The notes under the pieces: model-generated | What the model was told of the DNA's origin: nothing | Database searches by the model: none | Seen by the model: only the letters and a program-made list of their open reading frames with translations | NCBI GenBank assembly: GCA_016735395.1 | Contig: JAERRO010000019.1 | Location: 1 to 35,868 of the forward strand | From: Alphaproteobacteria bacterium | GTDB lineage: Bacteria > Pseudomonadota > Alphaproteobacteria > Rs-D84 > JAERRO01 | Reading direction: 5' to 3' | Length of the DNA: 35,868 bases | Translations under genes and position numbers: made by a program | In this document: in pieces, positions 12,941-35,491 of the stretch | Layout: the number at the start of each line of letters is the position of its first letter | Numbering within the stretch: the stretch's first letter is position 1

Positions 12941-13777
12941 ATGCTAAAAATTCAAAAACCAACTTCCGCAGGATTACGACATTTAGTTCAAGTCTCTAGA
13001 GACGAACTGCATAAAGGTAAACCAGAAAAAACTTTACTCCGTCCTAACCATTCTAAAGCCGGTAGAAATAATCATGGTAGAATTACCGTCAGACATCAAG
13101 GTGGTGGACACAAAAGAAAATATCGTGTAATAGATTTTAAAAGAAATATCCTAGACATCGTTGCAACAGTTTTGAGAATAGAATATGATCCTTGTAGAAC
13201 CGCTTTTATAGCTCTGGTAGAATATAATAACGAGGATAAAGAAAAGAGATACATTATTGCAACCGACAAAATGAAGTCGGGAGACAATATTATAGCCTCC
13301 AAAAGTGTAGTTGACGTTATTTCTGGTAATGCTATGCCCGTAGGACAAATTCCTGTGGGAACAATTATCCACAATATAGAACTTACCGTGGGTAAGGGAG
13401 CTATCTTATGTAGATCTGCTGGAACATCTGCTACTTTAATTGGAAAGGAAGGGCGATATGTTTTAATCACACTCGCATCTGGTGAAGTTCGAAAAGTATT
13501 CAAGGACTGTATGGCAACCGTCGGAGTGGTTTCTAACATAGATCAACGGAATGTAAAATATGGAAAAGCAGGACGAAGACGATGGCTCGGTCAAAGACCT
13601 GGAACTCGTGGAACAGCTATGAACCCTGTCGATCACCCTTTAGGTGGTGGAAACGGTAAAGGTGGAAAATTAGCTTTGACTCCTTGGGGAAAACCTTCTA
13701 GAGGATTTAGAACTAGAAAATGTAAACGAACACAGAAATTTATCGTGAGATCTAGACATCTCGCTAAGAAAAAATAA
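12941..13777 (+). CDS. rplB: 50S ribosomal protein L2 with an altered HPHGGG loop
   Basis: 278 residues, normal length. L2 signatures include [19 protein letters not shown] and [10 protein letters not shown]. The C-terminal loop next to the peptidyl-transferase centre is usually DHPHGGGEG followed by HPVTPWG. Here it reads DHPLGGGNG (residues 231-239) and LALTPWG. The His equivalent to E. coli His229 is kept (His232), but the second His (E. coli His231) is Leu234, and the later HPV is LAL. L2 is needed for subunit association and peptidyl-transferase activity. All other features are ordinary. Confidence 0.96.
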
Positions 13778-13787
13778 GGAGTTAATA

Positions 13788-14063
13788 ATGACAAGATCAA
13801 TTTGGAAAGGTCCTTTTGTTAAAAAGTCTACTTTAGATAAAACTAAAAAGGCCAATGAAACTAATAGCCATAAACCTATAAAAATTTGGACTAGATCTTC
13901 TACTATTTTACCTAGTATGGTCGGGTTGACTTTTTCTGTACATAATGGTAAAGATCATATTCCTGTCTTTATTTCAGATCATATGATAGGACATAAATTT
14001 GGCGAATTTGCATTAACCAGAACCTTTAGGGCCCACGCAGGTGCTAAAGTCGTAAAAAAATAA
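13788..14063 (+). CDS. rpsS: 30S ribosomal protein S19
   Basis: 91 residues. [14 protein letters not shown], the [13 protein letters not shown] segment and the [18 protein letters not shown] ending are typical of S19, which contacts the A-site tRNA region in the 30S head with S13. A TAAGGAG ribosome binding site precedes it, 10 bp after rplB. Confidence 0.97.
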
Positions 14064-14072
14064 GGGTCGTAT

Positions 14073-14519
14073 ATGAGTGTTGCTTTTGCAAAAAATAAAA
14101 ATCTGCATATTTCTACACAGAAATTAGAGTTGATTCTTGAACTTATAAGGAAAAGACCTGCGAAACAGGCTTTGGAAATATTAGCCCTATCTCACAAAAG
14201 AGCGGCCTTCGATGTTATGAAAACTTTAAAATCTGCCATAAATAACGCAGAAAAAAAGTCTCTGGTAATTGACGATATGATTATAATCGAAGCCTATGCG
14301 GGTTCTAGTATGAAGTTGAAAAGGAGAAAAACTCATAAAGCGGTAAAAATGAAACGGATGGCTCCTAGAAGAAAAATGTACTCGAACTATGTAATCAAAA
14401 TTGATAATAAAAATAATTTAAAACTAAATGTAAAAAAAGATAAGAAGATAAAAGATAATAAAGTAAAATTAAAAACGGCAGACATAAAACCTGCTACAAT
14501 TTCGAAGGAAGAGGTATAA
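14073..14519 (+). CDS. rplV: 50S ribosomal protein L22 with charged C-terminal extension
   Basis: 148 residues; L22 is usually 110-126. The core ends near residue 112 and has the L22 pattern (IRKRPAKQALEILALSHKRA, the LKSAINNAEKK segment and the tunnel hairpin GSSMKLKRRKTHKAVKMKRM). The final ~35 residues are Lys/Asp/Asn-rich and appear disordered. L22 lines the exit tunnel opposite L4. The gene is 3 bp upstream of rpsC. Confidence 0.95.
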   Translation: MSVAFAKNKNLHISTQKLELILELIRKRPAKQALEILALSHKRAAFDVMKTLKSAINNAEKKSLVIDDMIIIEAYAGSSMKLKRRKTHKAVKMKRMAPRRKMYSNYVIKIDNKNNLKLNVKKDKKIKDNKVKLKTADIKPATISKEEV

Positions 14520-14522
14520 ACT

Positions 14523-15209
14523 ATGGGACAAAAAGTACACCCAGTCATTTTTAGAATAAATAAGTCTAACACTAAAAGGCACAGTTCTACTTGGATCGCC
14601 TGGAAAGACGACTATGCCAAATTTGTGAAAGAAGATTTTGATATTCGTAAATTTATCTCTATCAAATTGAAAAAATCTTTTGTCGCTAATGTAGAAATCG
14701 ATAGAGTAGTAAATAAAATTATCGTAAATATTCATACTTCTAGACCTGGAGCTATAATCGGTAAAGGCGGTGAAGAGATCGATAAACTTAAAAAAGAAAT
14801 CGCTAAATTAGTTTCCGCAGACGAAGTGGCTATAACAATTACAGAAATTAGAAAAGCCGATCTTGATGCTTCTCTAGTAGCTCAATCTATAGCACAAAAA
14901 TTAGAAAATAGAGGTAGCTTCAAATCTGCTATGAAAAGATCTATCCAAAATGTCATGAGAATGGGAGCCAAAGGTGTCAAAATTATGATAAGCGGTAGGT
15001 TGAACGGCGCAGAAATCGCTAGAAGCGAATGGGCTAAAGAAGGGAGAATTCCTTTGCAGACTCTTAGAGCCGATATAGATTATTCTGTCGCAGAAGCGGC
15101 GACTACATACGGTGTACTCGGTATCAAAGTTTGGATCTATAAAGGAGATATCTTTAAAGAACAAAAAGAAGATGCTAAACCTATACCTAGAAATAAAGAG
15201 GAGCTTTAA
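14523..15209 (+). CDS. rpsC: 30S ribosomal protein S3
   Basis: 228 residues, usual length. It opens [12 protein letters not shown], carries the KH-domain loop [20 protein letters not shown], and has the C-terminal [20 protein letters not shown] and [12 protein letters not shown] blocks. S3 forms part of the mRNA entry channel and helicase. The start follows rplV closely, with GAAGAGG as ribosome binding site within the end of rplV. Confidence 0.97.
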
Positions 15210-15211
15210 TT

Positions 15212-15628
15212 ATGTTTATGCCAGCTAAAACAAAATTTAGAAGAGCTAGAAAGGGAAGAATTCACGGAATGGCGAAGGGTAATGTAAATATCGCTTTCGG
15301 TTCTTTTGGATTACAAGCTCTACAACCGGAACGGATTTCAGGTAGACAAATTGAGTCTGCTAGAAGAGCGATGACTAGACACATCAAAAGACAAGGAAAA
15401 GTTTGGATAAGAATATTTCCTCATACTCCTGTTTCTAAAAGAGCACTCGGTGTTCGAATGGGTGGTGGAAAAGGTCCAGTCGATAGATGGGTAGCGAAAG
15501 TTAAACCTGGGTGTATAATGTTTGAAATCGATGGAGTGCCAGAAAAATTGGCAAGGGAAGCTCTCGAACTTGCAGCATATAAACTTCCTATTAGAACTAA
15601 ATTTGTCAAACGATTGTTGAACGAATAA
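15212..15628 (+). CDS. rplP: 50S ribosomal protein L16
   Basis: 138 residues. It contains [46 protein letters not shown] and the [12 protein letters not shown] ending typical of L16, which contacts the A-site and P-site tRNA elbows. The usual start would be the internal ATG at 15218 (MPAKTKFRR), but AGGAG at 15199-15203 is 8 nt from the ATG at 15212, which I therefore prefer; the difference is two residues. Only 2 bp separate it from rpsC. Confidence 0.96.
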
Positions 15629-15640
15629 TAAAGGTAACTT

Positions 15641-15859
15641 ATGATAGATAAAATTGATAGAAAAAAAATTAAAACAGAATCTTTAGATGTTTTGAGAACT
15701 AAACTCAAAGTGCTGAAAAAAGAACTTATGGAGGCTAGACATAAAAATGCTATCCAAAAGTTAGAGAAAACTCATGTTGTCAGAATCTGTAGAAGAAATA
15801 TCGCTAGAATAAATACTGCCATCACGATGGCCGTCAAAAAATTAAATAAAGGAAAATAA
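15641..15859 (+). CDS. rpmC: 50S ribosomal protein L29
   Basis: 72 residues, helical coiled hairpin. Recognised by LRTKLKVLKKELMEARHKNA and the VRICRRNIARINTAI motif near the C-terminus. L29 is at the tunnel exit next to L23. The gene lies in the conserved position between rplP and rpsQ, with rpsQ beginning immediately after its stop. Confidence 0.94.
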   Translation: MIDKIDRKKIKTESLDVLRTKLKVLKKELMEARHKNAIQKLEKTHVVRICRRNIARINTAITMAVKKLNKGK

Positions 15860-15860
15860 T

Positions 15861-16121
15861 ATGCCTAAAAGAAAACTTACTGGAACTATTTTTAAACATA
15901 ATAATGATAAAACTGCCTGTGTCAAAGTTCAACGGCTATATAAAACTCCTCTCTATAAAAAGGTTGTTAAGTTTAATAAAAAATTTCATGCACATGACGA
16001 AAAAAATCAATTTAAAGTGGGAGACTCCGTCATAATTCAAGAATGTAGACCTATCTCTAAATTGAAAAAATGGGTCGTATTAGGACTCCAAAAAGATCTC
16101 AATAAAAAGGCAAAAAAATGA
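15861..16121 (+). CDS. rpsQ: 30S ribosomal protein S17
   Basis: 86 residues. The OB-fold protein S17 is recognised by KLTGTIFKHNNDKTACVKVQ, a variant HPLYKK site reading TPLYKKVVKFNKKFHAHDE, and GDSVIIQECRPISKLKKWVV. It binds 16S rRNA early in assembly. Its TGA stop overlaps the rplN start as ATGA, indicating translational coupling. This stop also helps to show that TGA is not reassigned. Confidence 0.95.
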   Translation: MPKRKLTGTIFKHNNDKTACVKVQRLYKTPLYKKVVKFNKKFHAHDEKNQFKVGDSVIIQECRPISKLKKWVVLGLQKDLNKKAKK

Positions 16122-16489
16122 TTCAACGAGAAACTTGTTGTGATGTCACCGACAATTCCGGTGCTACTATAGCCAAATGCTTCGGTATTTTGCGAGGATC
16201 TAGACATAAATCTGCACAGATAGGGGACATTATTACCGTCGCCATTCAAAAAGCTACTCCGACTGGTAAAGTCAAAAAAGGTTCAGTGCAAAAGGCTGTT
16301 ATTGTTCGTCAAAAATATAACTATCAGAGAAAAGATGGGACTTTCATCAAGTTTCAATCTAATGCTGTAGTTTTAATCGACCTAGAAACTAAAGAACCTA
16401 TAGGCACTCGTGTCTTTGGACCTGTCGCAAGAGAGTTGAAGGCTAAAGGTTTTAAAAAGATCGTTTCGCTAGCTCAAGAAGTACTCTAA
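16118..16489 (+). CDS. rplN: 50S ribosomal protein L14
   Basis: 123 residues, normal length. MIQRETCCDVTDNSGA, CFGILRGSRHKSAQIGDIIT and the C-terminal GTRVFGPVARELKAKGFKKI are standard L14. L14 forms part of intersubunit bridges and is the binding site of the silencing factor RsfS. It overlaps rpsQ by 4 bp. Confidence 0.97.
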   Translation: MIQRETCCDVTDNSGATIAKCFGILRGSRHKSAQIGDIITVAIQKATPTGKVKKGSVQKAVIVRQKYNYQRKDGTFIKFQSNAVVLIDLETKEPIGTRVFGPVARELKAKGFKKIVSLAQEVL

Positions 16490-16500
16490 AAGGAAAAAAT

Positions 16501-16806
16501 ATGAAAATTAAAACTAACGATAATGTTGTCGTAATCGCTGGAAAGTTTAAAGGTATGAAAGGACTTATCGTAAAGTCATCTCCTAAAACTTTTAAAGTTT
16601 GGGTCGCAGGTATCAATGAACGAATTAAACATCAAAAAGCTACTAACCAAAATCCTGGACAGAAAATTACTAAACATATGCCACTCGCAGTTTGTAAAGT
16701 CGCCTTGATCGATCCTAAAACTTCTAAACCTACTAGAGTCGGTTATAGATTTGTTGACGGAAAAAAAGTGCGGTTCTCTAAAAATTCTAACACAGACATC
16801 TTATAG
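16501..16806 (+). CDS. rplX: 50S ribosomal protein L24
   Basis: 101 residues. The KOW-type motif near the N-terminus reads NDNVVVIAGKFKGMKGLIVK, and the middle has a typical GxNxRIKHQK-like segment (INERIKHQKATNQNPGQ). L24 initiates 50S assembly by binding the 5' domain of 23S rRNA. AAGGA ribosome binding site; position between rplN and rplE is canonical. Confidence 0.95.
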   Translation: MKIKTNDNVVVIAGKFKGMKGLIVKSSPKTFKVWVAGINERIKHQKATNQNPGQKITKHMPLAVCKVALIDPKTSKPTRVGYRFVDGKKVRFSKNSNTDIL

Positions 16807-16815
16807 GAAATATTT

Positions 16816-17361
16816 ATGATTACTTTAAAATTAAAAGAACTTAATAAAGAAATTCGACCGATAGTAAAAGAACTACTCGAGATAAAAAACGATCATGCTA
16901 TTCCTAGATTATTGAAAATTTCTATAAATATGGGGGTAGGGGCTAGTGCAGTCAAAGACAAAAAACAAGCAGATCTAGCTAAAGAAGAACTTCGTAACAT
17001 CGCCGGTCAAGAACCTGTAATCTGTTATAGTACTAAATCTATTTCAAATTTTGGACTGCGAGAAGGTATGCCTATAGGAGTCAAAGTAACTTTAAGGGGA
17101 GATAAAATGTGGCAATTTTTGGAACGGCTCATTTATATAGCTCTTCCTCAAATTAACGATTTTAGAGGTTTTAATAAAAAACAATTTGACGGGCACGGGA
17201 ACTTTACCTTCGGACTCAAAGAACAGACTATGTTTAACGAAGTAAATTTTAACACGAACTCTCAACTTAGGGGTATGGATATTACTATTTGTACTTCTGC
17301 AACTAACGATAAAGCAGGTGAAGTTTTTCTAACTAAACTAAACTTGCCGTTCATCTCTTAA
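16816..17361 (+). CDS. rplE: 50S ribosomal protein L5
   Basis: 181 residues, normal length. Typical blocks are [15 protein letters not shown], ITGQxP-like [32 protein letters not shown] and [21 protein letters not shown]5 binds 5S rRNA and contacts P-site tRNA. A 14-bp gap containing a GGA ribosome binding site leads to rpsN. Confidence 0.97.
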
Positions 17362-17375
17362 CTATAGGATTTTAT

Positions 17376-17678
17376 ATGACTAGAAAAGCACTCGTGCAAA
17401 AAGAATTAAATAGAGAAAAATTAGTAAAAAAATATGCTGAAAAAAGAAAAGAACTGAAGGCAAAAATGTCTAGAAAATCTTCTCCTGAAGAGAGGGTAGA
17501 GGCAATGTTAGCCTTTACTGAACTTCCTAGAAATTCAGCTAAAATTCGTTTGCATAACAGATGCGCTATTACAGGACGACCTAAAGGGTACATAGGTAAA
17601 TTTGGACTCTCAAGAATTAAGTTTAGAAAACTTGCATCGCTAGGACAACTTCCTGGTGTCAAGAAATCTAGCTGGTAA
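17376..17678 (+). CDS. rpsN: 30S ribosomal protein S14 (zinc-free type)
   Basis: 100 residues. This is the longer, zinc-independent form found in Proteobacteria: only one cysteine is present, in [20 protein letters not shown], and the CxxC pairs of the short form are missing. It ends [11 protein letters not shown], the standard S14 C-terminus. S14 belongs to the 30S head. The two large antisense reading frames over it are shadows. Confidence 0.96.
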
Positions 17679-17693
17679 TCAAGAGGTTTATTC

Positions 17694-18080
17694 ATGGATA
17701 AAATTGCTGATCTTTTAACTCAAATTCGTAATGCTCAACTGGTTTTTAAAGAGGACTTAAATGTGCCTGCTTCTAAATTTAGAATAAGCATTTTAGATGT
17801 ACTACTTCAAAACGGTTTCATCTCAGGATTTAAAAAAGTTCTAATTGATAATAAAAATTATTTGAACATCACTTTGAAATATGTCAAAAATAAAGGTGTT
17901 ATTCAAAAAATAGAAAAAATTTCTAAACCTGGATTAAGAGTATACGCCAAATCGGATAGTATACCTAGATTCAGAAATGGAATAGGCCTCGTGCTCGTCT
18001 CTACCTCTAAAGGTATTATGACAGATTCGCAAGCCAGAAAATTAAATTTGGGCGGTGAAGTAATTTGCCAAGTCTGCTAG
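17694..18080 (+). CDS. rpsH: 30S ribosomal protein S8
   Basis: 128 residues, about the normal length. The N-terminus DKIADLLTQIRNAQ and the C-terminal SKPGLRVYAKSDSIPRFRNG and GLVLVSTSKGIMTDSQARK blocks identify S8, a central-domain primary binder. In E. coli S8 autoregulates the spc operon at rplE; I see no obvious mimic here by eye. The AAGAGG ribosome binding site lies in the 15-bp gap after rpsN. Confidence 0.96.
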   Translation: MDKIADLLTQIRNAQLVFKEDLNVPASKFRISILDVLLQNGFISGFKKVLIDNKNYLNITLKYVKNKGVIQKIEKISKPGLRVYAKSDSIPRFRNGIGLVLVSTSKGIMTDSQARKLNLGGEVICQVC

Positions 18081-18089
18081 GAGGATAAT

Positions 18090-18650
18090 ATGTCTAGAAC
18101 CGGAAGTATAATTTTAACTGTGCCTGAAGGTGTAACCGTAACTGTTTACCCCCAAGAAATAATCGCAGTCGGAAAATTAGGAGAAGATAAAATTTCTCTC
18201 GCTACGAAGTTTATGTCTGAAATTGATGTCAAATTAGAAGATGGCAAAATTTCTACATCTATAAAAAGTGAACAGAATAAATCTAAAAAAGAATATAAAG
18301 CCGTCTGTGGAACTATAAATAGACTTATCAATAATCTATTAGAAGGAGTTTCTACAGGATTTAATAAAGAAATTTATATGGTCGGTGTAGGATATAAAGC
18401 TGAAATAAAGGACGATCAACTGGTTTTAACCGCTGGATTTTCACACCTAGTTTATCTAGATATTCCTAACGACATCAAGGTAGAAGTTAATAAAAATAAG
18501 ACGGAATTTAATATTTCCGGTATAAATAAACAGGCTGTAGGTGATTTTGCAGATAAAGTTGTGAAAACTAGAAAACCTGATCCTTATGGTGGAAAGGGGG
18601 TGCACTATAAAGGTAAGCCTGTCCGTCGTAAAGAAACTAAGAAAAAATAG
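18090..18650 (+). CDS. rplF: 50S ribosomal protein L6
   Basis: 186 residues, slightly longer than the usual ~177. The two-domain L6 fold is recognised by INRLINNLLEGVSTGF, MVGVGYKAE, the LTAGFSHLVYLDIP segment and the C-terminal RKPDPYGGKGVHYKGKPVRR. L6 helps form the GTPase-associated region near the sarcin-ricin loop. An AGGAGGATAA ribosome binding region is the strongest in this operon. Confidence 0.96.
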   Translation: MSRTGSIILTVPEGVTVTVYPQEIIAVGKLGEDKISLATKFMSEIDVKLEDGKISTSIKSEQNKSKKEYKAVCGTINRLINNLLEGVSTGFNKEIYMVGVGYKAEIKDDQLVLTAGFSHLVYLDIPNDIKVEVNKNKTEFNISGINKQAVGDFADKVVKTRKPDPYGGKGVHYKGKPVRRKETKKK

Positions 18651-18659
18651 GAGACAATA

Positions 18660-19019
18660 ATGACTGTCAAAAAAATTAAGGCCTTCCGTCGAAGACAAAA
18701 TAGAGTAAGAAAAAATTCTCGTAGAATTAACTATGGAAAATTGAGACTCTCTGTTTATAGATCTAATAAACATATTTCTGCACAGATAGTAGACGATATT
18801 AAACAAGAGACTCTATTTTCTGCCTCTACTTATGAGAAAGATTTTGGAGATAAAAAAACTTGGAATGAAGAAGCAGCAGTATGGGTCGGACAGACTATCG
18901 CTAAAAGGGCTTTAGACTCTAAAATAAAAGATGTCTATTTTGATCGTGGTGGTTTTGTCTACTTCGGAAAAGTAAAAGCTCTTGCAGATAGCGCCCGTAA
19001 AGCCGGTCTGAATTTTTAA
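18660..19019 (+). CDS. rplR: 50S ribosomal protein L18
   Basis: 119 residues. [36 protein letters not shown] and the [20 protein letters not shown] ending are standard L18. L18 binds 5S rRNA together with L5. Ribosome binding site AGGAGA, 9 bp after rplF. Confidence 0.96.
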
Positions 19020-25817: not shown

Positions 25818-25846
25818 TTGTAATTAAAATATTAATATATTATAAT
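25818..25846 (+). promoter_or_regulatory. Putative promoter of the cysteine-rich protein operon
   Basis: TTGTAA (25818-25823) and a perfect TATAAT (25841-25846) are 17 bp apart, about 30 bp before the first start codon of the operon. It lies directly after the xerC stop. No terminator is visible between xerC and this site, so read-through is also possible. Confidence 0.55.
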
Positions 25847-25875: not shown

Positions 25876-28017
25876 ATGTTTAAATTTTTATCGAGCCGTA
25901 ACCTAATAAGTCTATTGAGAAAAACTAGTCTTTTATGTTTTGGGATCGTACTATTTTATGGAGAAGTGGTAGATGCCAGAAGTGGTATTTCTTCTAGAAG
26001 TTCTTTTTCAAATGCTAGAAGTGTTACTACAGATAGAAGTGCCGGTACACCGACTTCGATGAATACTGAAACTAGTAATCAAAATTCATGGGGATATAGT
26101 AATATAACTATGGGTAATAACTTGTCTTGTAAAAATACTGTTTTTAACTGTATGAACGATATTTGTAAATTTCCAGATAATCAAGGTAGATCATGTGCTT
26201 GTTCTTCTAGGTACGATGATATCAAGATAATAAAAGAGAAGGCCATCGCTATACAAAAAGAGGCCGATGAAGTTTTAAATGTTCAAGTCGAGAAAGAAAA
26301 ACTCGGTATAAAAGCAGACCTCATTTTTAGGGACGATAAAGAGGAAGCCGTCGTGAGTAGCTCTAGTATGGTCGCTGATATGATGTCTAATAATTTTTCT
26401 TCGTTCTCTCTAGATACTTTCGGGGACGACGATCAAGAAGATAAAAAAGAACTTCTTGGAACTTCTCTGTATAATTTTGCAAAAAATAAATGCAATGGTT
26501 CATATAAAAAGTGTAAAGCAGATGAAGAGACTCTAGAAGTGGCTTTCCTTCGACAGATTCAAAGCGACTGCGATACATACGAAGCATTCGTAAACTCTCA
26601 ATTAGATCAGGCAAGAGAAAATCTTAAAATGGCGACTAAAGCTCTTCAACAAGTGAGACTCGATACTTTCGATACTTTTAATAAATATAATAGGGGCGAA
26701 TGTACCGTTCTATATACTGACTGTGTAGCAGAACAGACCGACTGTGGAATCGGATTTCAAAATTGTTCTACTAAAAAACAATTAGACCTCAAGAGAGTTA
26801 TGTGCGACGATATCCTCGGTGAATGTATAGCATATAAAAAAGATGTAGTGCAAGATTTCTATATTTTTGTAGACGAACGGAGAATAAAGTATGCGAAAAA
26901 TGAAGACATTAGGATGAGACAATCTTGTCTGCAGAATGTCGATCTTTGTCTAGAGGAACATTGTCAGATCAATCAACGAACGGCCTGTGTAAACTCGCTA
27001 GAAATGGCTCTTAATGTTTGTCCTGTAATTACACAATGTGAACAAATTATTGGAACCGATTTAATAGATGTAGTAGAAGATAAATTATCCTCCTTGCAAG
27101 CTAACTTTTGTCAAGAAGATATTAAAGATTGTCTAACCGATAGATGTGGGGAAGGTTGGAATAACCCTGCCTGTATGTCTGCATCAGTAGAAGAAATTTT
27201 AGAAATGTGTCCGTCTAACAAAATTGCTACTTGTAGAGGTAATAGAAGTTCTACTAGTATCTTCTTAAAATCTTTAGCTATGAATATGTCTCATAGTAGG
27301 TTAAAATCTTGTGAAGCTATGGTTAATAAAAAAATCTATGAAACCTGTGGGGAAAATTTTCAATGTATTAGACCTTCCGTCGGTGTAGAGACCATTACCG
27401 ATGAGTTTATTAAAAATTCTAGCATCTCCGAACAGACCAGTATGCAAGCTACAGAGCAATATAAAGAACAACTCGAAAAAGAAACCAAAAGAATCTACGA
27501 TATGGTTATAACTGATCAAGAATTAAAAACTTGTTCTGAACAGTCTAATCAAGGTAGTAGTTTTTCTAGGAGAGATAGCTTTAAAGATAATACATACTTG
27601 TCCGCCGTTTATAGTACTATTTATATGAGAGTAGAACGGGAAGCATACTATAATTATACTAAAACTCTCGCGAAAATGTCTTCTATATTGGATGTAAATC
27701 AGGCCGAACAAAAATGTATACAAATGCAAGGAGTAGGTGGTGTCATAAGTGCCGTTTTTGATAAAAATACTAGATTGTGTAGGACATGTCGAAAAGATAA
27801 ATTATGTGAAACCGCAGGAAATGCAAAGAAGGGAGCTATGATTGGAGCTACAAGTGGTGCCGTTAGTGGGGCGACTATGGGATCTGCAGGCGGTCCTTGG
27901 GGAAGCGCGATTGGTGCCGGAGTAGGACTTATCGCCGGAGGTCTTCTTGGTGGAAAAGCATCTAAAGAAAAAGAATTTTGCACAGAGTTACGACCTTGTG
28001 AAGAAATAAAAATGTAA
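25876..28017 (+). CDS. Exported cysteine-rich protein 1 with C-terminal glycine zipper
   Basis: 713 residues; function unknown. I chose the ATG at 25876 because AGAGG (25865-25869) is 6 nt upstream; GTG at 25861 and ATG at 25870 are in frame but badly spaced. A signal peptide spans residues ~1-37, followed by a Ser/Arg/Thr-rich stretch (SGISSRSSFSNARSVTT). Cysteine module A begins at Cys85 (CKNTVFNCMNDIC, then CAC). Module B begins at Cys276 (NRGECTVLYTDC, CGIGFQNC, CDDILGEC). By eye the mature protein has 36 cysteines, spread to the C-terminus. Residues ~652-698 form a glycine zipper (GAMIGATSGAVSGATMG and GSAIGAGVGLIAGGLLGG) able to insert in or oligomerise at a membrane. Paralogous to the next two genes. 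Confidence 0.8.
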   Translation: MFKFLSSRNLISLLRKTSLLCFGIVLFYGEVVDARSGISSRSSFSNARSVTTDRSAGTPTSMNTETSNQNSWGYSNITMGNNLSCKNTVFNCMNDICKFPDNQGRSCACSSRYDDIKIIKEKAIAIQKEADEVLNVQVEKEKLGIKADLIFRDDKEEAVVSSSSMVADMMSNNFSSFSLDTFGDDDQEDKKELLGTSLYNFAKNKCNGSYKKCKADEETLEVAFLRQIQSDCDTYEAFVNSQLDQARENLKMATKALQQVRLDTFDTFNKYNRGECTVLYTDCVAEQTDCGIGFQNCSTKKQLDLKRVMCDDILGECIAYKKDVVQDFYIFVDERRIKYAKNEDIRMRQSCLQNVDLCLEEHCQINQRTACVNSLEMALNVCPVITQCEQIIGTDLIDVVEDKLSSLQANFCQEDIKDCLTDRCGEGWNNPACMSASVEEILEMCPSNKIATCRGNRSSTSIFLKSLAMNMSHSRLKSCEAMVNKKIYETCGENFQCIRPSVGVETITDEFIKNSSISEQTSMQATEQYKEQLEKETKRIYDMVITDQELKTCSEQSNQGSSFSRRDSFKDNTYLSAVYSTIYMRVEREAYYNYTKTLAKMSSILDVNQAEQKCIQMQGVGGVISAVFDKNTRLCRTCRKDKLCETAGNAKKGAMIGATSGAVSGATMGSAGGPWGSAIGAGVGLIAGGLLGGKASKEKEFCTELRPCEEIKM

Positions 28018-28036
28018 CCATCATATGGAGAAACCT

Positions 28037-30193
28037 ATGAAACTAATTTATACCTTAATAGCCTTTTGTTTTATCTTGTCTGCGACTTGTGTCGAAGCCG
28101 TCAGTACTAGATCTTCGGCGAGAAATGCCGCGTCCGAAGCTAATAAAGCTATTGCCGTTAATAAAGCGACAAACGATAGAGTAGATGATGCCAAATTTCA
28201 AGAGATGCCAGATTCTTGTATTGCAGAATATGATGCCTGTATGGATACATTTTGTCGAGTAGAAGATGAAGCCGGTAGATGTTTTTGCTCTAATCAAAAA
28301 GCTAAATTTGACACAAGATTAAAGAAAGCAGAAGATGATTCTTTCGATATTATCTCTAAAACTACAGATAAAGTTAACTCTATTCAAAGAGGAAATAGAG
28401 CTGAATATATTAAAGAGGGAACTAACGAAGGAGAAGATGTTAAAGGTAGATCTACGAATACTACAAGTGCAGCATCAACAGCTTTAGCCGACCTAGTAAA
28501 GTCTTTTTCATCTGGTTATGGTGGTGGTGACGAAGATCTAGAAGTCGATATGGACGGAGGAAAAGCTAGTATGAGAGGCTCCGTTCTACTACGAGAAATG
28601 AAGAATGAATGTTTTGAAAGAGGAAAAGTAGAGTGCCAAAGACATAAAGGTCTATTAGAACTGTTTTACTCTAAAAAAGTTGCAACCGACTGTACAAAAT
28701 ATGAGAAGATTATTGTAAAGAGAGAAAAATTACTTCAAACGCAGACAAGAGCATCTGCTCAAGCTGTTCGAGCGGCAGTTGTCGAGTCCTTTGATTCTAC
28801 GAATTTATATAATCGTGGTGAATGTATGGTCAAATTTAAGGGGTGTATGCAATCTAGTGCCGGATGTGGTAACGATTTTGCTAACTGTCCGACTTTAACA
28901 AATATGGCATCTAAGCAATATATTTGTGATACCGTACTAGACAAATGTGTAGCACATAAAGATACTGTGTTTACCGATTTTTGGGCCGATGTTGAATCTA
29001 TCGTGAAGAAGACTAAAGCTAGAGTAGATCAAGACTTTAAGTTGAGCTGTCTATCTCAAACGATAACTTGTATCGTCGACAAATGTAGCGGGGCGACTCT
29101 TGGTGAAGGTAGTGTAGAATATGAACTCTGTCTAATGAATAGAGAACTAGCATTTCAGACTTGTTCTAGTATAATGGACCCTTGTTCTATCGCAATTTAT
29201 GGTGCAGGTAAAGCTAGCGGTTCTAATTCTTCTAAAAATAGACTTTGGGATACTGTAGGAGCAAAACTATCTGTGATGGCAAATAGTGCCTGTGAAACAG
29301 CTGTACAAGGTGCAATTGATGAAAAATGTGGAGACGACATGAAAGGATGCCTCGGTCTAGGATACTTAGATCTAAAAGGAAATGGAAAAGATGGGGAGGA
29401 AAATGGGATGGTAGATGCTACCGTTATGCATTTATGTAAAGACGATAAAACTAATATGGAAAACATCGACGAAGGACTAAGACAAATTTACGAATCAAAA
29501 CATAGGACTGCTTGTTATGAAGTTTATCAATCTGCAGTCGACAAGGCTTGTGGTTTCGATGAAACAGGTACCGTTTGTGAATCTGTACCGGCTACTTTCG
29601 GTTTAATCAACCCATATAGTAAAAAACATATTGGCTTACAAGTTATTACTCGTACTGTTAAGCACGCTACTGCTACTGCGGCTGCTGTATTCAGTTATAG
29701 TATAGGAGGAATAAGGGGAACAGACTGTAAAGTTGCTACAAGCTGTCCTGCCGATTTTGGTCCTGATGATATAGATATTGTAGAGCAATTCGATATCATG
29801 AAAGCTAGTTATGCTGCTGGCGCCGATATAAAGTTGTGTGAGACGGGACTTTCCAAAAATTCTTTGACAAGCGGAGATACTACTGAGACAAATGTAGATG
29901 CCGCTCTTAAAAATATTTTGGTAGAGACTGCTAAACGGAACTATAATCAGAAATTTCTTGCAGTGTCCGCCGAAAAATCTAAAAAGGATGGTGCTATTAC
30001 TGGAAGGGCAGACTGTGCAAAGGCGGCGACTGGTTCTTTTAAAACTACATACAATGCTAGTACTGGACAGTGTAAAAGTTGTATTAAATACTGTGCTGAT
30101 ATGAATAAAAGTAGAAAAGGACGAGCTTTCTGGAGTAAAGATGTAACCTCATGTAAAAAATATGAAACTAAATGTACAACATTTCAAATGTAA
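28037..30193 (+). CDS. Exported cysteine-rich protein 2
   Basis: 718 residues; function unknown. The ATG at 28037 is preferred over 28025 because GGAG (28027-28030) is correctly spaced for it, and it gives a clean signal peptide (KLIYTLIAFCFILSATCVEA). The mature N-terminus is again Ser/Arg/Ala-rich (STRSSARNAASEA). Module A starts at Cys61 (CIAEYDACMDTFC, then CFC) and module B at Cys263 (NRGECMVKFKGCM, CGNDFANC, CDTVLDKC). I count 36 cysteines after the signal peptide, the same as protein 1. Near the C-terminus a CKSCIKYC cluster recalls CRTCRKDKLC of protein 1. No glycine zipper. Starts 19 bp after protein 1. Confidence 0.8.
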   Translation: MKLIYTLIAFCFILSATCVEAVSTRSSARNAASEANKAIAVNKATNDRVDDAKFQEMPDSCIAEYDACMDTFCRVEDEAGRCFCSNQKAKFDTRLKKAEDDSFDIISKTTDKVNSIQRGNRAEYIKEGTNEGEDVKGRSTNTTSAASTALADLVKSFSSGYGGGDEDLEVDMDGGKASMRGSVLLREMKNECFERGKVECQRHKGLLELFYSKKVATDCTKYEKIIVKREKLLQTQTRASAQAVRAAVVESFDSTNLYNRGECMVKFKGCMQSSAGCGNDFANCPTLTNMASKQYICDTVLDKCVAHKDTVFTDFWADVESIVKKTKARVDQDFKLSCLSQTITCIVDKCSGATLGEGSVEYELCLMNRELAFQTCSSIMDPCSIAIYGAGKASGSNSSKNRLWDTVGAKLSVMANSACETAVQGAIDEKCGDDMKGCLGLGYLDLKGNGKDGEENGMVDATVMHLCKDDKTNMENIDEGLRQIYESKHRTACYEVYQSAVDKACGFDETGTVCESVPATFGLINPYSKKHIGLQVITRTVKHATATAAAVFSYSIGGIRGTDCKVATSCPADFGPDDIDIVEQFDIMKASYAAGADIKLCETGLSKNSLTSGDTTETNVDAALKNILVETAKRNYNQKFLAVSAEKSKKDGAITGRADCAKAATGSFKTTYNASTGQCKSCIKYCADMNKSRKGRAFWSKDVTSCKKYETKCTTFQM

Positions 30194-30223
30194 TACAGAC
30201 ATTATAAATATAAAGGATTATCT

Positions 30224-32362
30224 ATGTTTAAAAAAATTTCTATATTATTCTCTATAACTTTAGTTATAGTTTATACTAGCTTTAATTTATCTGCCATCTC
30301 TATTAGGAGTGCTGCAAGCGAGAGATCTGCTACTACTTCTAATAGAAGTGCGGTCGCTACTGCTGTAGAAGAGGAACAAAAAGCGATGGCTATAGATACC
30401 GATTGTCAGACTAGATATAACTCCTGCATGGATAACTTTTGTGCGAGCGGTGATAAAAATGCTAAAAGGTGTATTTGTCTAAACAAACATGCAAGTATTA
30501 TGACTAGAATTGATAATGTAGAAAAAAATAATATCAATATTGCTGACCAGAAAAATAGAGATATACAAAATATTCAACTTGGAGCACAAGCCGGTATCGT
30601 AGAAGACGAGATGTCTAAATATAACCAAGAAGCCGAAAAAGAGAGTAATAGTAATTCTAGCAAAAGTATCGTGAGTGATCTGATGGCTTTAATGATGGAT
30701 CCTACTGGCGATAGCTATTCTGACGAAGACGATGAACTAGTAAATGCTAGGGGAGCGAAACTATTTAATATGGGTAATCAAGAATGTGAGAAAATTCTTT
30801 ACGGTGGGTGCGAACATGACTGGGAAATGATTACACAAAATTATGTAAAATACATGAAAGACGACTGTAGAAGGTTCGGTAAATATGCTGAGGGGTTAGA
30901 ATCTAAATTAAAAATTAGTAGTTGGGCTGCTAAACAAGAAGTAGAGACCGCGAGATTTGACTCTTTTAAAAGTTCTAATCTTTACTCTAAAGGTGAGTGT
31001 ATGGTTAGATTTAACGACTGTATGAGAGGTGATAAAGTTTGTAAATCTGACTTTTCTGAATGCTTCCCTTACGACGATTCGCCGGCCATAGATTTTGCCA
31101 CTACTTTAGTAAAAGTTAATGCCACTCTTAGTAATAAACAACTTCAATGTGAAAGAGTTTTAGACGAATGTGTCAATGTTAGTGATGAAATCTACGGCCT
31201 GTTTATCGCTTTTATCAAACCTGACATAGAAAAGATAAAAGAACGGAGAGATGTAGAATTTAGACAGACCTGTGTTGAAAAATCTATAGAATGTATTTAC
31301 GATGTATGTGATACTAAAGACTCTCTAGGAGACGATTCTAAAGAGATGGAAATGTGTTTAAGAGATTCAGCAATCGCAAAAGGAGGTTGCTCTCATATAT
31401 TGAATCCTTGTAATAAACTTTTTGCAGTCGGTGAAGGTGCCGACCCTAATATCGTTTGGACAACTTTAAAATGGAAGCTTAACACTATGACTAACAAAGC
31501 CTGTCAAGAAGAGATGACCGCGAAAATAGAAAAATCTTGTGAAGGAGAGGTTTGTATCTCTACATCGTTTGATGACTTTATGAATAGACCTGGACAAGAA
31601 TCTGCTCAACGGTTCGTCTGTGGCGGAATCGAAGACGATGTAGAGAACGAGTTCTCTTCCGCAGATGTGTCGAAGGCTATTAAGAATACTTATGAAGAAG
31701 TACAAATGTATGCCTGTTTCGATATTATCGATGACCTCATAGCCGAGTACTGTGATCTAGATATCACTACAGGTAAATGTAAAAAGTTCTCTTCATATAA
31801 AGATATTCAGAGTATGACTTTAGTTGGCGCTGAAGGTAAAGACATAAATACGGTATACGACGAGGTAAAAACGTCTATATCTTCTCCGACCGAAGGGGGA
31901 ACAGACGGACTAAGTAAACTTGTAGGTTCAGAAGTCGATAATATCATCGCTAAGTTAGTCAATAATTCTAGGTATGCATCTTGTAACGAAGGACTAAAAC
32001 AAAATTCTATCGTCGGGACAGGATCCTACGATTTCGAAGATAAAGTAAGAACGGTGCTAGAAGTTTTTGTCTTATCTGATGCTAAAGTGCAATACAATAA
32101 TAAAAAGTTGAAACTTTATGCCGATCTCGCTAAAAAACTTGATGTCGCAGGTAAAAAGACCGCTTGTGATGCTAATAAAAATGGATGTGCTAGAGCAGAG
32201 TGTAAGAGAGCCGTTACATTTGATACCGCTAAATATATCTGTACAATAACCGATAACTATTGTTCTGCATATAGAACTAAACGAGTAGGTAAATGGTATA
32301 GGAGGAAGAACGTGCGGTACTGTCATAGTCGAGCAACCACAGTATTACCTCTGCAATATTAG
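30224..32362 (+). CDS. Exported cysteine-rich protein 3
   Basis: 712 residues; function unknown. An AAAGGA ribosome binding site precedes the ATG. The signal peptide (residues ~1-25, ILFSITLVIVYTSFNLSA) is followed by the Ser/Arg/Ala-rich segment IRSAASERSATTSNRSA. Module A starts at Cys61 (CQTRYNSCMDNFC, CIC), exactly the same residue number as in protein 2, and module B at Cys259 (SKGECMVRFNDCM, CKSDFSEC, CERVLDEC). About 34 cysteines by eye. Helix-rich acidic spacers lie between modules. The C-terminal end has CDANKNGCARAEC and a basic RTKRVGKWYRRKN tail. Clearly paralogous to proteins 1 and 2 and transcribed with them. Confidence 0.8.
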   Translation: MFKKISILFSITLVIVYTSFNLSAISIRSAASERSATTSNRSAVATAVEEEQKAMAIDTDCQTRYNSCMDNFCASGDKNAKRCICLNKHASIMTRIDNVEKNNINIADQKNRDIQNIQLGAQAGIVEDEMSKYNQEAEKESNSNSSKSIVSDLMALMMDPTGDSYSDEDDELVNARGAKLFNMGNQECEKILYGGCEHDWEMITQNYVKYMKDDCRRFGKYAEGLESKLKISSWAAKQEVETARFDSFKSSNLYSKGECMVRFNDCMRGDKVCKSDFSECFPYDDSPAIDFATTLVKVNATLSNKQLQCERVLDECVNVSDEIYGLFIAFIKPDIEKIKERRDVEFRQTCVEKSIECIYDVCDTKDSLGDDSKEMEMCLRDSAIAKGGCSHILNPCNKLFAVGEGADPNIVWTTLKWKLNTMTNKACQEEMTAKIEKSCEGEVCISTSFDDFMNRPGQESAQRFVCGGIEDDVENEFSSADVSKAIKNTYEEVQMYACFDIIDDLIAEYCDLDITTGKCKKFSSYKDIQSMTLVGAEGKDINTVYDEVKTSISSPTEGGTDGLSKLVGSEVDNIIAKLVNNSRYASCNEGLKQNSIVGTGSYDFEDKVRTVLEVFVLSDAKVQYNNKKLKLYADLAKKLDVAGKKTACDANKNGCARAECKRAVTFDTAKYICTITDNYCSAYRTKRVGKWYRRKNVRYCHSRATTVLPLQY

Positions 32363-32391
32363 GTTGAGATTATAAATAAAAAGGAATTCGT

Positions 32392-33219
32392 GTGAATATG
32401 TTTGTGAAATTTTTGTCTTGTTTGTCTATAGTACTATATGCTAATAGTACTTTGGCAACCGCTTGTAATTCGTCTGTTGCTTTTAACTGTATGAATAAGT
32501 TTTGTAATACGACAAATGGAAAATTCGAACTTTGTAGAAGGTGTGGTGATTCTTCTTCTACTACAGCAGCAGAAAAAGTTTTAAAACTTTCAGTGCTGAC
32601 GACTTCTTACATTAAAAAACTTGACTTCAATAATGTATCTAGTAATGAACCCGACATAAACGGAGCTCCTAGTAGGGGAGTAGAACGGTATTTTTTCGCA
32701 TTCGGTAAATGTGCGAAGATCTCGAATTGTTCGGAAGCTCAAATTCAAGATTTCTATCATTCTAGTGTCGTTCAGTCTTGTATCTCTATGCAGAACGAGA
32801 TCAATCGGAAGACTAATGAAGTGAAAAATTATAGTTGTGTCGATAAAACGATCAACTGTCTTCAAAAGTCTAGTAGATGCGGAGGAGACTTTTCTAAATG
32901 TCATGATGACCCAGATAATCGGTTTGTTCAGATAGCCCAATGTGCTAAACAAAACAACTGCTCGTCAATAGAAGTAGCAGATATTACAGAAGCATTCAAT
33001 CAATCTGTCGTCATCGTCAAACAGATGAAACAACAAAAACAAATCGGTGTCGCAACTAGAATAGACGACGACTCAAAACAGAGACAAGAAGAAAAACAGA
33101 CCATCTGTAGACAAGTAAACGATATTTGTAATTCTATTTCTGTCGATAAAACTAAAATAGAAGCCATCGATATCTATGAAAAATCTTGGTGCCAATTTGT
33201 GAAAAAGGAATGTCAATGA
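32392..33219 (+). CDS. Exported cysteine-rich protein 4 (short paralogue)
   Basis: 275 residues; function unknown. The GTG at 32392 is chosen because AAGGA lies 6-7 nt upstream; ATG at 32398 is too far. A signal peptide covers residues ~1-22 (FVKFLSCLSIVLYANSTLA) and the mature chain begins almost at once with module A (CNSSVAFNCMNKFC at Cys25, CRRC). Module B starts at Cys149 (CVDKTINCLQKSSRCGGDF, then C). It lacks the Ser/Arg-rich leader and the long C-terminal half of proteins 1-3. I count 18 cysteines in the mature chain. Its TGA stop overlaps the next start as ATGA. Confidence 0.75.
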   Translation: MNMFVKFLSCLSIVLYANSTLATACNSSVAFNCMNKFCNTTNGKFELCRRCGDSSSTTAAEKVLKLSVLTTSYIKKLDFNNVSSNEPDINGAPSRGVERYFFAFGKCAKISNCSEAQIQDFYHSSVVQSCISMQNEINRKTNEVKNYSCVDKTINCLQKSSRCGGDFSKCHDDPDNRFVQIAQCAKQNNCSSIEVADITEAFNQSVVIVKQMKQQKQIGVATRIDDDSKQRQEEKQTICRQVNDICNSISVDKTKIEAIDIYEKSWCQFVKKECQ

Positions 33220-34325
33220 ATATAAATAAAATACTTTTCCTGACGGTTTTCGTTTTCTGTACAACATTTATAACAGAGATTTTTGCTAATACTCCGAGTA
33301 GTAGATCTGCTATATCATCTCAGCGAAGCATCACAACAAATGCTATTGCTCAAACATCTATACCAACTCAACAGCCCGCCGTTAGTCAAGATGCTATCAT
33401 ACGAGTGAGTGAGATCACTATCAAAATCGATAGCAGAATCGCTAAATCTAAAGTAGATAAAGAAGAGATAATTAGGACCATCGTCGAAAACTCCGCAATA
33501 GACTCCGAAAACTCTTGTCTTAAAGAATTCTCGTCATGTACTAAAGGATTCTGTGGAGATAAATACCAGAACTGTATCGGAAAATCGGACAAATTTGTCT
33601 CCGAGAAGGTCTCTACTTGTGTCACAAGATTTAAATGTGATAATATAATGCCTACTCAAATGATGGGTATTCTACTTAACGATATGAAAAATCTAGCTGT
33701 AAATAATGCTATAGAACAAAAAGTTAAATGTAGAATTCAAATATTTCAATGTCTTGAAGGGGTTTGTGGTCCTTCTATGACGAACTGTATGAAACGGGGA
33801 ATTCAAGATAAAAGGGTGGCCTGTCAACAGGAGATTTCTCTGTGTGAAAAAGTGAACCCCGGTGCATGGTCGCAAGCTCAAGCTATTTTTAATGCTATGG
33901 TCGATAGTCAAAAGCAGAGATTGTCAACTCTCTATGCCGAAAAAGAAGCCATAAATACCCAGTTGAGTAATAGCTGTGCAAATCAAGGTGGAGCATACGG
34001 GAATAATAATCAGACTTGTACCGCCGAAGTAAAATTCTTCAGTAAAGGTAAATTGGCCGGACAAAAAAGGGTTTTGATGGGGACACAATTTTACTGTAAT
34101 CAAAATGTCTTCGGAGTAGATGTCATCGGTATGAAAGAACAAGTCAATCAAAGAAATACTGATATAGCTCAAATTCAAAGCAGTATGATCGGAATGTCAA
34201 CAGGTATGGTCGCTGGTAAAAGTGGGATGTTTAGTGGACTGTTACCTTCCGGAGATAAAAACACCAATAAGGAAAAAGCCACTGATAAAGGTAATATTTT
34301 AAAATCAGTAAAAGGAGAGATGTAG
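33216..34325 (+). CDS. Exported cysteine-rich protein 5
   Basis: 369 residues; function unknown. The ATG at 33216 overlaps the previous stop (ATGA) and has AAGGAA (33205-33210) upstream, so I reject the in-frame ATG at 33186. The signal peptide (residues ~1-23, ILFLTVFVFCTTFITEIFA) is followed by the shared leader PSSRSAISSQRSITT. Two cysteine groups follow: CLKEFSSCTKGFCGDKYQNC from Cys101 and CRIQIFQCLEGVCGPSMTNC from Cys172. They look like an internal duplication of one four-cysteine unit. The C-terminal third has a helical segment, three isolated cysteines and a Gly/Met-rich stretch (GMSTGMVAGKSGMFSGLL). Confidence 0.75.
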   Translation: MNINKILFLTVFVFCTTFITEIFANTPSSRSAISSQRSITTNAIAQTSIPTQQPAVSQDAIIRVSEITIKIDSRIAKSKVDKEEIIRTIVENSAIDSENSCLKEFSSCTKGFCGDKYQNCIGKSDKFVSEKVSTCVTRFKCDNIMPTQMMGILLNDMKNLAVNNAIEQKVKCRIQIFQCLEGVCGPSMTNCMKRGIQDKRVACQQEISLCEKVNPGAWSQAQAIFNAMVDSQKQRLSTLYAEKEAINTQLSNSCANQGGAYGNNNQTCTAEVKFFSKGKLAGQKRVLMGTQFYCNQNVFGVDVIGMKEQVNQRNTDIAQIQSSMIGMSTGMVAGKSGMFSGLLPSGDKNTNKEKATDKGNILKSVKGEM

Positions 34326-34691
34326 ATGATGTATAAAAATTTTTTGAAAGTTCTATTTGTAATAGCCATATGTTTTTCAACCGCAACGGTTCTAGCCGAT
34401 AAGCCTAAAGTGGAAGAGAAAAAATCGAATTATGGGGAAGCCGTTGCGGGTGCCGCCATCGGAGCCGTCGGCGGATACACAATCGGCGGAGCAGTTCAAA
34501 ATTATAAAAATAAGGGAGAACTGAGTCAATTCGAAAGTCAACTTGTTTGCGAGTCTTCTACCGGGGTATCTGGCACATATAATCAAAATATAAAAATCGG
34601 GAATCTAGATGCCATCTCACAATATAATAAGATGATAGCTAAATTTGACAAAATAAATGAAGAGATTTTAATCCTAGAGTCTTTCTTCTAA
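34326..34691 (+). CDS. Small exported glycine-zipper protein
   Basis: 121 residues; function unknown. A signal peptide (residues 1-24, ending VLA) is followed by a glycine zipper at ~37-57 (GEAVAGAAIGAVGGYTIGGA), the pattern of small outer-membrane or membrane-oligomerising proteins such as the 17-kDa antigen class. The rest is polar with a C-terminal helix. Only one mature cysteine (Cys75), not in a lipobox, so it is not an obvious lipoprotein. It begins directly after the stop of protein 5, with AGGAG 8 nt upstream; a second ATG follows at once. Last intact gene of the operon. Confidence 0.7.
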   Translation: MMYKNFLKVLFVIAICFSTATVLADKPKVEEKKSNYGEAVAGAAIGAVGGYTIGGAVQNYKNKGELSQFESQLVCESSTGVSGTYNQNIKIGNLDAISQYNKMIAKFDKINEEILILESFF

Positions 34692-34715: not shown

Positions 34716-35491
34716 ATGATTGAAAATAATAATTTAAATGTCGTTCCTATAGCCTTCTGCATTACACCGAACTATTTGAAGCTCTGCGACTTCACTTTTC
34801 AATACGGCCAATAGATCTACTCGATATCAATTGTTTATCGTAGGATTTGATTTTACAAAAAGCGATCAATTAGTCATAGATAAACTGCAACTTCAATTTC
34901 CTAATCATAAAATTTTACTCAAAAAGTTAGATAAGAAAAAGTACAATTTTGACGGTGTTAAAATGTCTAATAGGTTCCCGTCAATAGTTTGGAGTAGAAT
35001 CGATCTACCTAATATTTTTCCTAAAATTAAAAAAAATAAAGAGTATTTTTGTTCTGGACTTATGGTTATGAATCTAGAACTTATGCAAAAAACAAAGTTC
35101 GTTAGAAAAAACTTCGATATCGTTCGTAAAGCAGAACTTTACGACTGGGAATATCCGGATCAAAATCTTTTGAACTTTACAGCGAAAGGGAAGGTAGTTT
35201 TATTGTCTCCTTTTGCACAATATATTCCTAATTTAGATAGAAATAAAGATGTCAAAAAAACTAATGGAAGTAGATCTAAAGGGAAAATTTCCTAGAAGGA
35301 GATATTTACAAAATAAAATAAATATTATACATTTCGCAGGTAGAAAAAAGTTTGGGACAGATTTCGCTACAATTGGTTCGCTAAACAATGGGTACAATAC
35401 ATATCTGAGTTCAATCTATAAAGGTGAGACATTACAAGCTCTAAAATTGAGAAGTAAAATTTATGGAACCTTAAAAGAAGTCCAAAAATAG
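34716..35491 (+). pseudogene. Broken family-8 glycosyltransferase
   Basis: Three reading frames together give a GT8-like protein. Frame one starts at ATG 34716 (MIENNNLNVVPIAFCITPNY) and hits TAG at 34812-34814. Frame two reads SLFNTANRSTRYQLFIVGFD from ~34792 and continues with EYFCSGLMVMNLELMQ and WEYPDQNLLNF to a stop at 35295. Frame three ends with KINIIHFAGRKKFG and stops at 35491. These match the order of GT8 blocks. The segment with the DxD metal-binding motif, expected between IDLPNIFPKI and YFCSGLMVMNL, has been deleted. GT8 enzymes add sugars to lipopolysaccharide or other surface glycans. Two frameshifts plus the deletion make it inactive. Confidence 0.75.

Follow-up and report, generated by a model that had tools for sequence, protein, structure and literature searches.

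The closest described counterparts of the proteins considered here are OmcA and OmcB of the chlamydial outer membrane complex, which are exported, cysteine-rich proteins of host-dependent bacteria with a presumed disulfide-stabilised envelope; the YiaD-type lipoproteins, which combine a glycine zipper with an OmpA domain; the F-type conjugation protein TraN, a large exported cysteine-rich protein that acts at sites of cell-cell contact; and the type IVb pili of the toxin-coregulated and R64 types. Here we describe a six-gene operon, with products P1 to P6 in gene order, that resembles each of these in part. It occupies positions 25876–34691 on the + strand of contig JAERRO010000019.1 from an alphaproteobacterium of the order Rs-D84 (GenBank assembly GCA_016735395.1; 674 kb, 93.5% complete). 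The window, by which we mean the whole stretch of DNA that was analysed, is this one entire contig (C20; 35,868 bp), and the operon lies close to one of its ends.

The resemblances are limited in each case. There is no sequence match between the cysteine-rich proteins and the chlamydial outer membrane protein families (Pfam-A, E≤1), so they are not members of the chlamydial complex, and the Rs-D84 family is further set apart by many more paralogues, by modelled helical rods, and by its occurrence among Alphaproteobacteria, in an order that has genes for peptidoglycan. P1 has a YiaD-like zipper (4.7e-6) and one relative of P5 has a C-terminal OmpA domain, but YiaD lacks a large cysteine-rich helical part and the P1 zipper scores 26.5 of 175 bits, far under the YiaD cut-off. 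With TraN there is no PF06986 match (E≤1), and the cysteine operon is not linked to a conjugation operon. Type IVb pilus genes are present in the same genome, and a prepilin-like gene adjoins cysteine-rich genes in two families of the order, although the cysteine-rich proteins are encoded outside the pilus cluster and are without a prepilin leader.

Exported cysteine-rich proteins of the operon

The six open reading frames (ORFs) are closely packed. The first three encode long proteins that are predicted to be exported cysteine-rich rods: P1 (25876–28017; 713 aa, 37 cysteines), P2 (28025 or 28037 to 30193; 718–722 aa, 38 cysteines) and P3 (30224–32362; 712 aa, 34 cysteines). These are followed by P4 (32392–33219), a short exported cysteine-rich protein of 275 aa with 19 cysteines; P5 (33216–34325), an exported cysteine-rich protein of 369 aa with 16 cysteines; and P6 (34326–34691), a small exported glycine-zipper protein of 121 aa with two cysteines. 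Taking the P2 start at 28037, the intergenic spacings from P1 to P6 are 19, 30, 29, −4 and 0 bp. The ORF calls bear out the gene set, protein sizes and spacings given in a preliminary description of this DNA, and its figure of about 34–36 cysteines in the three large members is accepted as right alongside the ORF counts above.

An obvious Sec signal peptide is present at the N-terminus of all six proteins, as read by eye (for example, ...FYGEVVDA followed by RS and ...SATCVEA followed by VS). The cysteine content of P1–P5 is 4.5–6.9%, as against 0.85% in the remaining window ORFs, and their cysteine richness is therefore not due to chance. The preliminary description held that five genes share the same two cysteine modules, and this is broadly right: the spacing C-x6-C-x4-C-x8/9-C-x-C is found at the start of P1–P3 and, slightly altered, in P4, while C-x6-C-x6-C-x6-C-x12/28-C-x6-C lies further along P1–P3 and is nearly matched in P4, whose cysteine spacings resemble a shortened form of the rod modules. 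P5 has a doubled module of its own, with two copies of C-x6-C-x4-C-x6-C; it also has a beta module and, at its C-terminus, a segment resembling a zipper. Zippers had been proposed for P1 and P6. P1 does carry one, a hairpin at residues 648–698 that gives sub-threshold matches to the Gly-zipper_OmpA and YiaD-type zippers of Pfam and NCBIfam (3.5e-5 and 4.7e-6) and, from alignments, is seemingly inserted within the C-terminal beta module; that of P6 is weak (0.02). We also note an arginine- and serine-rich stretch (RSA and RST repeats) just past the signal peptide in several exported proteins, these being P1, P3 and P5 of the window and others at loci L166 and L169; RS- or RG-rich stretches are likewise present in relatives from families f3, f4 and f6.

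Scans of P1–P6 against Pfam, NCBIfam, PHROGs and PADLOC returned glycine-zipper and chance-level matches alone. An alignment of 119 relatives was used as a 119-row profile for searches of the order, the phylum and the PDB, and gave no match in the PDB sequence search. No family with an assigned function in Pfam, NCBIfam, PADLOC or the PDB matches the cysteine proteins, in keeping with the earlier remark that no described system could be recognised, and cysteine-rich proteins of Rs-D84 or its relatives were not found in literature searches. Judged by these comparisons the proteins appear categorically new, both as a protein family and as a system, with a function that we infer below.

The alignment of the 119 relatives contains 30 cysteine columns that are invariant or nearly so, at identities to P3 of mostly 18–26%, a pattern that is hard to explain other than by structural disulfides. 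Disulfide stabilisation of the family proteins is thus strongly indicated, and the same proposal in the preliminary description gains from these columns and from an encoded DsbA: 24 of 27 order genomes have a gene for a DsbA-type protein, the window genome among them (L168:9132-9935, DSBA 1.4e-15). The AlphaFold2 model of P3 (mean predicted local distance difference test score, pLDDT, 79.4; predicted template modelling score, pTM, 0.48) has long helices at residues 88–143, 197–250, 317–363 and 604–653 (up to ~55 residues), has short helices or hairpins where the cysteines cluster, and ends in a beta module of three strands at 660–711. The family proteins are predicted to be long disulfide-locked helical rods. 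Comparison of P3 with itself using hhalign revealed a weak resemblance between residues 255–410 and 410–535 alone (probability 31, E 5e-4), and Foldseek searches with the P3 model gave no match at E≤0.001 in the PDB or among the viral predicted structures of BFVD.

Distribution and gene order in the order Rs-D84

The family is found throughout the uncultured order Rs-D84 and is restricted to it within the samples searched. The 119-row profile had matches in all six Rs-D84 genomes and in none of 381 other sampled Alphaproteobacteria, and in a phylum sample of 399 genomes it matched solely the two from the order; a P5 profile showed the same restriction in the sampled genomes. Tblastn searches of phages and plasmids with P3 gave zero matches, and there is therefore no sign of a mobile-element origin. 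Ca. Enterousia is assigned by GTDB to Rs-D84 (PMC12306168), and our genome search places an Enterousia-like family, f5, in the same order as the window genome. Members of Rs-D84 are inferred to be obligate symbionts or parasites, no flagella are reported for them, and it is suspected that unidentified membrane proteins make contact with other cells (PMC12306168).

P3 as a single query matched 47 of 59 genomes, and each f5 genome had 8–17 copies. Among the relatives with family members are Ca. Enterousia and bacteria from termite guts and the rumen; the sample contained no other member of the window genome's own family. Three orthologous groups were drawn from 80 loci: A (~720 aa), B (~850 aa) and C (~840 aa). 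P1 is an orthologue of group A (phmmer 4e-98; in a tree it forms a clade with A with support 100/99). P2 and P3 are related to each other and nearest to group B by profile score, and are sisters in the tree, albeit with a long-branch warning. In 72 of the 80 loci a group A gene and a group B gene are neighbours with the same orientation, A and C occur together in 62, and linkage of DsbA to the A–B pair is partial (18/51 loci). In two f5 relatives (L135 and L014) a B-type paralogue lies directly 3' of rplQ, a near equivalent of the position of the window operon after rplQ and a xerC-type gene.

P5 is an order-wide member, with homologues in 48 of 59 genomes and almost always in single copy, and wherever an f5 locus has homologues of both P4 and P5, that of P4 lies directly 5' of that of P5. 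Of 39 relatives with genomes of ~0.9 Mb, 30 have P5 and the best of the large paralogues on one contig, always no more than 55 kb apart (range 2–55 kb, median 28 kb), and at L137 a stretch of no more than 14 kb contains groups C, A and B together with P4, P5 and a cysteine gene that has an OmpA domain. Separate runs of exported cysteine-rich genes, P5-like members included, are present in families f2, f3, f4 and f6 (L117, L118, L119, L120). Small zipper genes are found within such runs and adjoin P5 homologues in families f6 and f3 (L119:726-1064, L115:10835-11134, L120:4163-4492); their likeness to P6 is one of layout, with a signal peptide, a zipper, one cysteine and a short tail.

To date, the compact arrangement of all six genes is known from the window genome alone. 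Relatives have two conserved pairs (P1 with a gene of P2/P3 type, and P4–P5), and also hold further paralogues and OmpA-domain partners. A second run of the family is present in the window genome itself (L166:7181-12968; G000:C19, about 13180-18967), encoding proteins of 247, 243, 1004 and 400 aa with 9, 8, 48 and 19 cysteines, of which the 1004-aa and 400-aa proteins match the family profile clearly (5e-22 and 1e-27) and the other two do so weakly. The system thus extends beyond the six-gene unit. The preliminary description was right to regard the large proteins as paralogues, but the closed six-gene complex that it envisaged does not fit a set whose pairs are split in relatives and which has a second operon here. 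Nor are the genes scattered in relatives, where they co-occur and cluster.

Proposed envelope anchoring and competing explanations

OmpA domains bind peptidoglycan. None is present in the window proteins in Pfam and NCBIfam scans, but a P5 homologue in a relative is fused to a C-terminal OmpA domain (L138:9292-11298, residues 547–641, 2.9e-9), the zipper of this protein being assigned by alignment alone, and OmpA-domain cysteine genes adjoin P5 at four f5 loci (L050, L077, L136 and L137). Together with the zippers, this fusion and these neighbours lend support to an anchoring of the proteins in the envelope, and the anchoring element of the envelope or surface complex suggested earlier is thereby backed, its closed six-gene form having been set aside above.

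We favour, with confidence that is about evenly balanced, an order-specific, envelope-anchored and disulfide-locked scaffold or appendage, or an adhesin system. The operon would then be part of an exported system specific to Rs-D84. Sec signal peptides would direct export, and the proteins would fold in the periplasm or outside the cell as elongated helical rods, multiply locked by disulfides that a DsbA-type oxidase probably introduces. P1, P5 and P6 may serve as anchors through glycine-zipper membrane hairpins, aided in relatives by the peptidoglycan-binding OmpA domain, while P2, P3 and P4, which have no zipper, would be the extended subunits, P2 and P3 perhaps being joined via the C-terminal beta module. 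The product would most likely be a scaffold of the envelope, or an appendage on the surface, that is hardened by disulfides; with it these reduced, partner-dependent bacteria could grip other cells or stabilise the envelope, and they probably need such a structure.

Several points weigh against this proposal. No OmpA gene adjoins the operon in the window genome. DsbB was not found in 27 order genomes, so that the route of oxidation is doubtful in what are possibly anoxic hosts. At a pTM of 0.48 the overall arrangement of P3 is uncertain, and the model of P5 is poor (pLDDT 53.6), with helices, a beta hairpin and helices. The linkage counts are drawn from related genomes and hence are not independent. 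Homology of P6 to the other small zipper proteins is not claimed, as the hidden Markov model match is weak and covers the glycine run only.

A more far-reaching form of the proposal is possible, albeit doubtful: an undescribed surface machine in which a multi-subunit bundle of disulfide-locked rods, diversified into 8–17 paralogues and anchored by zippers and by OmpA domains on peptidoglycan, would attach to partner cells and perhaps obtain food from them. Bacteria of Rs-D84, to which Ca. Enterousia belongs, are widespread and common in the guts of animals and have genomes of roughly 1 Mb or smaller, and the family is a natural candidate for partner contact. As an exported family found across the order it offers concrete targets for antibodies, imaging, proteomics and structure determination where none existed, and it suggests that there may be an undescribed way of building long, rigid, disulfide-locked helical proteins.

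The same cysteine density and near-invariant cysteines, the links to OmpA and peptidoglycan, and the multi-copy expansion would also suit a disulfide-crosslinked layer that hardens the envelope, with a function like that of the chlamydial complex and no adhesive role. We consider this unlikely, since Rs-D84 encodes MreB, RodA and MrdA (PMC12306168) and peptidoglycan is therefore probably present, and the chlamydial families are not matched.

A role for the cysteine-rich proteins as accessory or tip parts (adhesins or minor subunits) of the type IVb pilus of the order, with no independent scaffold, has some support in the prepilin-like genes with an EMLGVLAI motif that adjoin cysteine-rich genes in f2 and f4 (L117:5376-5879, L116:10052-10555). 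The window genome does have a type IVb pilus set in one cluster, with TcpQ, a secretin, PilO, a T2SSE ATPase and T2SSF (L145:7695-14699, G000:C23), and a T2SSE-family ATPase is encoded in 56 of 57 order genomes; PMC12306168 mentions type IV pili for UBA9783 only. However, the operon lies outside this cluster, no prepilin-like gene is present in the other loci scanned, P1–P6 carry ordinary signal peptides with no PF07963 match and hence without a prepilin leader or N-methylation motif, and 8–17 copies seem more than one pilus needs. We regard such a role as quite improbable.

Least credible, and very unlikely in our view, is that the proteins are parts or substrates of a VirB-type type IV secretion system, acting in the manner of TraN and TraU, the cysteine-rich mating-pair proteins found in F-type systems: secretion systems of this kind are common in reduced bacteria that depend on a host, VirB4 is present in 26 of 27 order genomes, and the window genome encodes VirB4 (G000:C9:5088-5654) and, on another contig, a VirB11-like ATPase (L146:9473-10432), but there is no TraN or TraU Pfam match at E≤1 (PF06986 included), no relation by sequence or fold to solved proteins of these systems, and the operon and virB4 are on different contigs (C20 and C9).

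Genomic setting and other tandem genes

Upstream of P1 are rplQ (23589) and then a gene for a recombinase of xerC/D type (24892). Of the promoter-like sites on the + strand, the best one close to P1 is TTGTAA-17-TATAAT (10/12 match), at 25818–25846. Such sites are barely in excess (41 observed, 30 ± 6 expected from shuffles), and a single good promoter ahead of P1, as the preliminary description put it, is therefore no more than plausible. Beside the operon and near the contig end, an ORF at 34831–35295 has a glycosyltransferase family 8 match (2.7e-8). Two further tandem arrangements were observed: five short genes of 135–245 aa at L168:13719-16561, at least two of them clearly alike, with no function assigned, and, at L146:15466-19343, genes in tandem in which openings of the KYEFTKETKKVDGKLLYRIRAFRDFG type recur.

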